Source: Cenarchaeum sp. (GTDB lineage Archaea > Thermoproteota > Nitrososphaeria > Nitrososphaerales > Nitrosopumilaceae). Taken from it: a DNA stretch of 64,000 bases. Shown here in pieces: positions 8,338-12,066 of the stretch. The notes below the pieces were generated by a model, which made no database searches, had not been told where the DNA came from, and worked only from the letters and a program-made list of their open reading frames with translations. The stretch is from contig JAHRAL010000056.1 in assembly GCA_020027325.1 (NCBI GenBank), positions 1 through 64,000 on the forward strand. Reading direction: 5' to 3'. A program made the translations under genes and the position numbers. Each line of letters starts with the position of its first letter. Positions within the stretch are counted from its first letter, which is position 1.

Positions 8338-8411
8338 GCTTCGATAGCTCAGCCTGGTAGAGCGTTACCTTGGTAAGGTAAAGGTCGCGGGTTCGGATCC
8401 CGCTCGAAGCT
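8338..8411 (+). tRNA. tRNA-Thr (anticodon GGT)
   Basis: A complete 74-nt cloverleaf with no intron. Acceptor GCTTCGA pairs TCGAAGC; D stem GCTC/GAGC; anticodon stem TTACC/GGTAA around loop TTGGTAA, giving anticodon GGT (reads ACC and ACU); T arm GCGGG-TTCGGAT-CCCGC; discriminator T. CCA is not encoded. The downstream methylase stop lies only 2 bases beyond the 3' end on the opposite strand. Confidence 0.95.
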
Positions 8412-8413
8412 CT

Positions 8414-9265
8414 TCAATAATTCTGTATCAAGAGCTCAGAATGCCCGTTGCGCGAGCTCCCGACAGAGTTTATCGCACGCTTTGCGCGCAGCCTGCCGAC
8501 GGACCAGTCCGCATCAAACGTGGCATGGACGTTGCGCGTGTCAGAGTTTGACACAAGCACATAGCATCCGCGCTCGGATAGCTTGTTGCACGTCTCGGCA
8601 AGGCGTGCCAGGTCTTGTGCACCAAAGTCCATGCTCGTATAGCTGGTAAAGCTTGCAGTCCGGCTTGCAGGCTGGTACGGCGGATCAAAGTAGACAAAGT
8701 CCCCGCGCCGTGCGGTGCGAAGCACCGCGGTAAAGTCGGCGCACTTTATCGAGATCCTGCGGGATCGCAGGATGCGGCTTGCTGACCTGAGCGCGTCCGC
8801 ATTGACAATGTTGGGGTTGGTGTATCGTCCCATCGGGACGTTGAACTGGCCGTTGCTGTTGACCCTGTACAGCCCGTTAAAGCACGTCTTGTTTAGGAAC
8901 AGCAGGCGTGCGGCCTTGGCAACCTGGGTGCGCGGGGCCGAGGCCCTGGTCGCATAATAGTAGGCCCGCGGGTCTTGGGCATAGTTTCTTTCGTGCACGC
9001 GCAGAGACGAGATGAGCTCCTCGACCCTGTCGCGCACGGTCACGTACGTGATTATGAGGTCAGAGTTGAGGTCAGACAGCGAGCACGGGGTGCGCGCATT
9101 GTCTGCAAGAATCGAAAAGGCCATTGCGCCCCCGCCGACAAAGGGCTCATAGTACGTCCCAAAGCTGTCAGGTATGTGGGCGCGGAGCTCGGATATGATC
9201 TGCCTCTTGCCGCCGGCCCACTTTACAAAGGGGGCGGCAATCTGGTATGCCTGCTGGTGCGCCAA
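8414..9265 (-). CDS. DNA adenine N6-methyltransferase (Dam / D12 class)
   Basis: 283 residues. It has the class-alpha (D12) motif set: FVKWAGGKRQI (motif X, about 13-23), YYEPFVGGGAM (motif I, SAM binding), LFLNKTCFNGLYR and the catalytic DPPY (about residue 193). Family members methylate adenine within short sites such as GATC or GATATC. No restriction endonuclease gene flanks it, so it is an orphan enzyme that may be regulatory, phage- or element-derived, or half of a lost restriction system. It abuts tRNA-Thr(GGT) tail to tail. The recognition site cannot be deduced from sequence alone. Confidence 0.92.
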   Translation of the reverse strand: MAHQQAYQIAAPFVKWAGGKRQIISELRAHIPDSFGTYYEPFVGGGAMAFSILADNARTPCSLSDLNSDLIITYVTVRDRVEELISSLRVHERNYAQDPRAYYYATRASAPRTQVAKAARLLFLNKTCFNGLYRVNSNGQFNVPMGRYTNPNIVNADALRSASRILRSRRISIKCADFTAVLRTARRGDFVYFDPPYQPASRTASFTSYTSMDFGAQDLARLAETCNKLSERGCYVLVSNSDTRNVHATFDADWSVGRLRAKRAINSVGSSRNGHSELLIQNY

Positions 9266-9395: not shown

Positions 9396-10046
9396 CTAGT
9401 CCCACTTTGACCATGCGGCCATCCAGCGATACGTCCACGTATTGAGCTTACAGCCCAACGCAGCCATTGTCACTGACAGCACAGCTCCGGCACCGGCACC
9501 CAAGGCAACTGGGCTGTTGTAGAATTTGCCCACCTGGGGTTCTATCGGTGTCATGTATGGAGGCAGAGTCGGTCGCGGGTACTTGAACGCAGTCTCTAGC
9601 GGGTCGGCAACCGTTATCAAGTTCACCATGTTGAACAGAGGCAACGACATGCCGGCTAGCACACCGCCAAACAGAATCAACGAGTGCTTGTTCTTCTTTG
9701 TAGCCCAGTAGGCAAGATCCATCAGCATTGCAGATGGGAGCCAGACCGGCGTGACAATAAAGTCATACGGATAACCAAGAGCAAACCAAGCCCCTTTGGC
9801 GATCCATGTGTAGACTGTCATTATCAGCGCATAGTACGTCGCAGTACCCGGCACTCCAGTGAATGTCAGGTAATAGGCCGCACCAACCACGAGCATGAGC
9901 GTCTGCGATATGGAAAATATCACAAATGATGTCCATGCCCAATCAGTGTAGAAGATATAGTCTCCAGCGTTGATCGTCAGCAGTGTAGAGTTTACAGCAA
10001 CTACCACAATGAAGAGGTAGTGTGTACAACGTCTCAGCCAAACCAT
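9396..10046 (-). CDS. amoA: Ammonia monooxygenase subunit A
   Basis: 216 residues starting MVWLRRCTHYLFIVVVAVN, the standard archaeal AmoA length and start. It is a polytopic membrane protein with about six hydrophobic segments, including TLLTINAGDYIFYTDW, GVPGTATYYALIM and ALGYPYDFIVTPVWLPSAM. AmoA is part of the membrane enzyme that oxidises ammonia to hydroxylamine, the energy source of these archaea. The gene follows amoX on the minus strand after a 99-base gap that holds its own TATA box, so it can be transcribed separately. The upstream in-frame extension to 10121 is not conserved and crosses the promoter. Confidence 0.98.
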   Translation of the reverse strand: MVWLRRCTHYLFIVVVAVNSTLLTINAGDYIFYTDWAWTSFVIFSISQTLMLVVGAAYYLTFTGVPGTATYYALIMTVYTWIAKGAWFALGYPYDFIVTPVWLPSAMLMDLAYWATKKNKHSLILFGGVLAGMSLPLFNMVNLITVADPLETAFKYPRPTLPPYMTPIEPQVGKFYNSPVALGAGAGAVLSVTMAALGCKLNTWTYRWMAAWSKWD

Positions 10047-10068
10047 TACAGGGTCAACAAGAATGGAA

Positions 10069-10081
10069 GTATATATAATTT
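10069..10081 (-). promoter_or_regulatory. TATA-like box of amoA
   Basis: Minus-strand AATTATATATACT centred about 28 nt before the amoA ATG, in the amoX-amoA gap. It is one of the strongest TATA elements in the window, fitting a highly expressed gene. Confidence 0.65.
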
Positions 10082-10145
10082 TAGGACGACTAGCGATCAA
10101 CACGCACGCGTATATCAGCAAAAATAGGATATAGGTAGTTTACAC

Positions 10146-11357: not shown

Positions 11358-11463
11358 AGCCCGATAGTCTAGCGGTCAATCAGGCAACGCCTGGGCCAAT
11401 GATCTCGCGCTCTGGATCTCTAGGGGATACGCGGGGACGGCAGTTCGAATCTGCCTCGGGCTA
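11358..11463 (+). tRNA. tRNA-Gln (anticodon CTG) with two predicted introns
   Basis: The 106-nt gene has acceptor AGCCCGA/TCGGGCT, T arm GGCAG-TTCGAAT-CTGCC and discriminator A. Removing 11380-11399 (20 nt, in the D loop near position 21) and 11416-11428 (13 nt, canonical 37/38 position) gives a 73-nt cloverleaf with anticodon stem TCGCG/CGCGG around CTCTGGA, anticodon CTG. Both introns fit bulge-helix-bulge geometry. Intron 1: helix GGTC/GGCC flanked by two AAT bulges, with inner hairpin CAGGC-AAC-GCCTG. Intron 2: helix CTCT/GGGG flanked by bulges GGA and ATA. The D arm GTCT/TGAT with a weak fourth pair parallels other archaeal tRNA-Gln. The gene ends directly against the rps7 stop on the other strand. 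Confidence 0.85.
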
Positions 11464-12066
11464 CTATCTAGATGCCTGCGCTATGCGCTCTAGCTCGTGC
11501 TTGCGCTTTACAGACGGCGCATCAGGCGAGTTCTCGGCCGCACCGACGAGGTGGTCTGCGAGGTACTCTTCGATGGATTTTGGGTTTGAAAACGTGCTCT
11601 CGCGCACGCCGTCTGCGATGAATTTTAGCGCAAGGTCTACGCGGCGCAGCGGCGAGACGTCGACTGACACGTGGTACACGGTTCCGCCGTACACGATCCT
11701 AGTCGTGTCCTCGTTTGGCGCAGAGTGCTCGACGGCGCGCACCAGAACCTCGACTGGGTTTTTGCCCGTCTTTAGCTCGATTATCGTAAAGGCTGACTTT
11801 ATGATGTTAAATATCCTGGCCTTTTTGCCTGCCATCCGCCCCGTGTTTTTTGCATACTTTTTTCCAAAGTGCATCATCTTGTTTGCCAGGCGCTCGACAA
11901 TGTGCGAGTCCTCCTTGTTGAAGCGCTTTAGTGCAGAGCGCCCGTATGTCACTGGGATCACCACCTTGCGCAGCGATATTGCGTTGCGGAGGCTGTTGTC
12001 AGATACCGTAATGCCCGACGTATCCCACCTGTCAAAGAGCTTAAAGTTGGGCTCCTTTGCGGTCAT
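11464..12066 (-). CDS. rps7: Ribosomal protein S7
   Basis: 200 residues with archaeal S7 features ([47 protein letters not shown]). S7 nucleates assembly of the small-subunit head on 16S rRNA. Its start overlaps the rps12 stop by 4 bases, so translation is probably coupled. In many archaea EF-1alpha and S10 follow S7; here the operon ends and the stop abuts the tRNA-Gln gene on the opposite strand. Confidence 0.96.

Follow-up and report, generated by a model that had tools for sequence, protein, structure and literature searches.

The window, that is, the whole stretch of 64,000 nucleotides analysed here, lies in contig C17 of a 1.25-Mb assembly that comprises 134 contigs and is 91% complete. 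Since it encodes an archaeal AmoA (9396-10121), and since its ribosomal protein S7 is nearest to those of "Thaumarchaeota archaeon S13" (88% identity) and "Cenarchaeum sp. PNGst_S" (87%), the host is an ammonia-oxidising archaeon of the Nitrosopumilaceae. The gene studied is a tRNA-Gln(CTG) with one intron in the D arm and another in the anticodon loop, and its elements are compiled in Table 1. A TTATA-containing box is found at a similar distance upstream of the gene in the window and in all six relatives examined. At another place in the window, a tRNA-Thr(GGT) gene (8338-8412) adjoins a gene for a D12-class adenine DNA methyltransferase (8414-9265, minus strand), a pair that is possibly the trace of an element inserted at a tRNA.

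Table 1. Features of the tRNA-Gln(CTG) locus, in positions of the window.
Feature	Position	Strand	Remarks
Probable TATA box, TTATAA	11326-11331	+	27-32 nt upstream of the tRNA; putative promoter element
tRNA-Gln(CTG) gene	11358-11463	+	20-nt D-arm intron and 13-nt anticodon-loop intron
Exon 1: acceptor 5' strand, D-stem 5' strand, D loop through A21	11358-11379	+	
GGTC, exonic 5' strand of the 4-bp splice helix H1	11374-11377	+	Pairs with 11394-11397
5' bulge AAT	11378-11380	+	Predicted cut 11379|11380, behind the second base; based on the BHB rule and on the empty sites
Intron 1, 20 nt, tRNA position 21/22, D arm	11380-11399	+	Exactly absent in some relatives
Hairpin of intron 1, CAGGC-AAC-GCCTG	11381-11393	+	Pair probabilities 0.67-0.77
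GGCC, intronic 3' strand of H1	11394-11397	+	Supported by the alignment of relatives
3' bulge AAT	11398-11400	+	Predicted cut 11399|11400
Exon 2: D-stem 3' strand, anticodon-stem 5' strand, anticodon CTG (11412-11414), G37	11400-11415	+	
Intron 2, 13 nt, canonical position 37/38	11416-11428	+	Excision, ARAGORN, scan
Exon 3: A38, anticodon-stem 3' strand, variable loop, T arm, acceptor 3' strand, discriminator A73	11429-11463	+	
Ribosomal protein S7 gene (rps7)	11464-12066	-	Pfam PF00177; tail-to-tail with the tRNA; marks the same locus in relatives

Excision of both introns leaves a tRNA-Gln(CTG) of 73 nt and restores the cloverleaf, as judged from the excised sequence itself, from ARAGORN and from a two-segment excision scan. 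In the scan, both strands of the window were searched with 0-30 nt taken out at 21/22 and 0-40 nt at 37/38, and solutions were accepted only if the acceptor, anticodon and T stems were complete, the D stem had 3 bp and the conserved bases of the loops were in place, with the D-loop length preset to that of the window gene itself. Its sole match was this gene, with excised lengths of 20 and 13, and none was obtained when one strand of each of 20 order-1 Markov sequences, 64 kb long, was scanned as a control. When introns are allowed, ARAGORN miscalls the raw gene as Glu(CTC) with an 11-nt intron; once intron 1 is removed it reports Gln(CTG) with a 13-nt intron, and once both are removed a plain Gln(CTG) with all four stems, the CTG anticodon in a 7-nt loop and U33 present. 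The identity, the two introns and their exact borders thus stand as originally predicted, the D-arm borders being backed also by the empty sites described below. The description of the product as perfect is slightly too strong, because the D stem has three pairs and a U13/U22 mismatch, which is common to 3 of 43 aligned rows. The first acceptor pair is A-T; archaeal GatDE recognises A1-U72 for the charging of tRNA-Gln.

The gene was also expected to be missed by ordinary tRNA prediction, which is half true: ARAGORN without introns and the Rfam tRNA model with fast filters do not report it, but with permissive filters the Rfam model recovers 11358-11463 with a score of 34.6 bits (cut-off 29 bits), and its alignment of the whole gene confines the insertions to the D loop and the anticodon loop. 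Searched with Rfam and ARAGORN, the genome yields the window gene as its only Gln(CTG). An antisense Gln call obtained at a low threshold within a Leu gene (L191) was discarded as an artefact. A search of a phage collection gave just weak matches at E 5, several of them to tRNA arms.

At the D-arm junction, a 4-bp helix (H1, GGUC/GGCC) is flanked by 3-nt bulges (AAU/AAU), and the intron carries its own 5-bp hairpin; all were foreseen in the original prediction. Both H1 and the hairpin are included in the unconstrained RNA fold, with pair probabilities of 0.63-0.77. Among 43 distinct intron-bearing relatives, the four pairs of H1 are intact in 42, the exception (L047) keeping three, while the length of the intron ranges from 11 to 25 nt, with H1 kept throughout this range. 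The third pair is UA in 19 rows, CG in 17 and UG in 7, and the swap between U-A and C-G is a true compensatory change. The exonic strand is GGUC or GGCC, with its partner at the 3' end of the intron; the 5' bulge is AAN and the 3' bulge AAG, AGG or ATG, with AAT or AGT in three rows that include the window. On the 5' side, 4 nt separate H1 from the D stem, and as the D stem does not abut the helix, the motif is a relaxed bulge-helix-bulge (BHB) and not a strict one. The repeated AAT means that the sequence alone places the border only to within 3 nt, and AA|T was chosen on the basis of the BHB rule and of the empty sites (GGTCAA/GGAT).

The anticodon-loop intron is 13 nt long in the window and 13-18 nt long in the 43 rows of the alignment. 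That it is an insertion is clear; the textbook helix expected at its ends, however, is weak, and this is the weakest part of the original description. One can draw the canonical helix with 4/4 pairs in the window, as CUCU/GGGG with the bulges GGA and AUA, but its probability in the fold is below 2%. The minimum-energy fold, which relies on a competing hairpin, lies 7.2 kcal/mol below the BHB structure drawn in this way. In 39 of the 43 relatives the canonical helix (32-35) makes three of its four pairs, with the mismatch at C34. A register one base later gives 4/4 pairs in 23 of the 43 rows and 3/4 in the window, and the spliced product is identical under either register, except in L034. Since no relative was seen with the same gene body and no 37/38 intron, this second intron is without the empty-site proof that the D-arm intron has.

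The 141-bp region of the gene was used as a query against 61 genomes, its own included, of which 51 matched. The best match was fetched from 30 genomes and contained the gene in every case, with the D-arm intron in 28 and without it in two (G012 and G030), in which the exon junction GGTCAA/GGAT is intact. These empty sites, with the exons joined at the predicted place wherever the sequence was read, are an independent proof of the D-arm insertion. A strict pattern applied to 80 rps7 loci of named genomes recovered 44 genes with the D-arm intron and 25 without it, and missed 11 loci: in eight, the Gln(CTG) near rps7 is another gene, free of introns, two (L080 and L104) show no gene, and one (L091, a contig of Nitrosopumilus sp. 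H13) has both introns and lacks the 5' acceptor strand, being either an assembly join or a broken gene. Two further records with a Nitrosopumilaceae-type rps7 and tRNA-Gln are labelled "Candidatus Rhodobacter lobularis" (L132) and "Nitrososphaeraceae archaeon" (L107); the label of the record or the bin is probably wrong.

The 43 distinct intron-bearing sequences were made into a covariance model, which matched 288 of 300 genomes of the order, partly via other tRNAs. The 132 genomes of the window's family that were tabulated were classed by match length, a proxy for which the sequence was read at the fetched loci only: 78 match over at least 100 nt (D-arm intron present), 45 over 87-91 nt (intron absent), and nine are not listed by the model, namely seven of the pelagic genus g19, G021 and G250. 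All 45 genomes of the 87-91 nt class belong to genus g11, in which the D-arm intron is kept in 10 of 55 genomes. The arrangement had been described as unusual; with 78 of 132 genomes carrying the D-arm intron, it is not rare in this lineage.

Three other readings of the locus were weighed. The ARAGORN call mentioned above would make this a tRNA-Glu(CTC) with a single small intron in the anticodon loop, and it is on this outcome that a single-intron reading fails. We reject it, and regard it as very improbable, because the same exons give Gln(CTG) in relatives with an empty site, a separate Glu(CTC) exists in this genome (L178), and no other Gln was called on the hit strand among its 38 Rfam tRNA hits; the annotation as tRNA-Glu is thereby corrected. 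It is just as hard to believe that the D-arm segment is retained as an expanded D loop, so that only the 37/38 intron would be spliced: the segment does form a stable hairpin in the precursor, but it is absent in 45 of the 132 family genomes, exactly so where the sequence was read, and its length varies while the 4-bp helix and the 3-nt bulges are kept.

Decay into a pseudogene, to which the D-stem mismatch could point, deserves equally little credence. The acceptor and T-stem pairs are invariant in the 43 aligned rows and the anticodon stem is compensated, the gene is the sole Gln(CTG) found in the genome, and its TATA-like box is conserved. We are highly confident that the locus is a functional two-intron tRNA-Gln(CUG) gene of an ammonia-oxidising Nitrosopumilaceae archaeon, in which both introns of one precursor would be cut by the splicing endonuclease and the exons ligated.

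The enzyme expected for such splicing is represented in this genome (G000) by one subunit found with PF01974, a protein of 211 aa (L141, contig C56, L141:1177-1812). At the position of the catalytic His of the M. jannaschii enzyme it shows G, and it is a beta-type subunit. In the assembly, which is 91% complete, no alpha subunit was found. When E values as high as 1 were admitted for PF01974, there were matches in 60 of 61 relatives, two strong ones in most of them; within the same genus, G001 has a strong alpha-type match, as have most relatives, and G002 a single match only. The match in G001 makes assembly incompleteness the likely reason for the missing alpha subunit. In the alpha subunit of G008, the catalytic Tyr, His and Lys of A. 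pernix EndA are matched in the alignment, and a Lys occupies the position of the crenarchaeal loop (Lys44). The role of this loop in the endonuclease is treated in PMC6379350, and the Thaumarchaeota have been assigned an alpha2beta2 enzyme (PMC4090602).

Under the preferred reading of a functional two-intron gene, both introns and the exons would be transcribed as one precursor, and an alpha/beta heterotetramer would recognise a BHB-like fold at each junction and cleave every 3-nt bulge between its second and third bases. A ligase would then join the exons into the 73-nt tRNA. The order in which the introns are excised is likewise something that we infer.

The history of the D-arm intron was approached through 20 genes that were read, 16 of them outside the family, and 26 further sequences. 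Ten sequences, chosen because the intron was visible, come from families f4, f7, f8, f11, f12, f13, f14 and f15 and have it at the same position with 4/4 pairs. In f2, f3 and f10 a D-arm intron seems to lie slightly further 3', and in f6, f9, f16 and f17 such best matches as were read are other, intronless genes. In another order of the class, with five of the many class matches read, one genome (G316) has the intron in both Gln(CTG) and Gln(TTG), and three f22 genomes have the 37/38 intron only.

Further insertions were observed in the tRNA-Gln(CTG) of other families, on the 5' side of the D stem (f2, f3, f8 and f14) and in the D loop near 15/16 (f11 and f13), so that one such gene may hold up to three introns (loci L258, L260, L265, L266, L271, L277 and L281; L251; L273). 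In the window's genus and a neighbouring one (G001 and G008), the tRNA-Gln(TTG) (L295 and L294) has an intron between the acceptor and the D stem, and the Gln(TTG) of the present genome may thus also be hidden from ordinary tools.

In genus g11, which includes Nitrosopumilus sp. Nsub, the D-arm intron is gone from most genomes, and the loss is exact where the sequence was read. In the pelagic clade g19, an intronless Gln(CTG) sits beside rps7; the loci behind this observation and the comparison that follows are L022, L030, L088, L089, L100, L101, L118, L119, L133 and L135, C1:939857-939928 of G020, and L344. The Gln(CTG) of G020 is identical to its own Gln(TTG) at 69 of 72 positions, against 53 of 74 for the spliced Gln(CTG) of G018, which would most simply be explained if the old gene had been replaced by an anticodon-switched copy of tRNA-Gln(TTG). 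An earlier idea that the pelagic clade is without Gln(TTG) was dropped, since Rfam and ARAGORN found this gene in G020, where a DNA search and a pattern had missed it. U33 is nearly universal in tRNA anticodon loops; the pelagic Gln(CTG) has C33, as do both Gln genes of G020.

Taken together, the observations could be accounted for by one very old D-arm intron, vertically inherited since before many ammonia-oxidising families split, which a single marine genus has lost through precise excision, and which was removed in a streamlined pelagic clade when an anticodon-switched, intronless copy of Gln(TTG) replaced the whole gene. We give this history an even chance, its vertical age being what we infer. 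If it is true, the intron has been kept either by selection or for lack of routes of loss, and intron maintenance would be testable in one tRNA.

Introns of this kind are already known, as the original prediction had stated. According to PMC8450103, 217 archaeal genomes contain 673 non-canonical introns, of which Thaumarchaeota account for 107, and tRNAscan-SE 2.0 includes a Thaumarchaeota-specific intron model. Multiple tRNA introns with non-canonical BHB motifs, the D loop included, are attributed to Marck and Grosjean 2003 and Sugahara 2008 in PMC6379350 and PMC4033280, and some pre-tRNAs hold two or three introns (PMC3218864). No description of this tRNA-Gln intron was found in the literature searched; Hallam et al. 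2006, on the genome of the close relative Cenarchaeum symbiosum, is among the sources for archaeal tRNA introns cited in PMC3218864, and may already list a counterpart. What is new is the depth of conservation, the exact loss in one genus and the probable pelagic replacement by an anticodon-switched copy of Gln(TTG). The gene reveals no new mechanism; it offers natural pairs with and without a non-canonical tRNA intron, so that genomes alone suffice to trace the splice borders, the loss of the intron and the replacement of the gene.

In comparison with the canonical archaeal introns at 37/38, intron 2 is alike in its position, its small size and its possible exon-intron pairing, whereas the textbook 4-bp helix of those introns is here weak and mismatched in most relatives. 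The non-canonical and multiple introns of Thermoproteales and Thaumarchaeota share with this gene the presence of more than one intron, the D-arm site, the relaxed BHB and, probably, the alpha2beta2 endonuclease; what sets the present case apart is a single D-arm intron that has stayed at the same position through much of an order.
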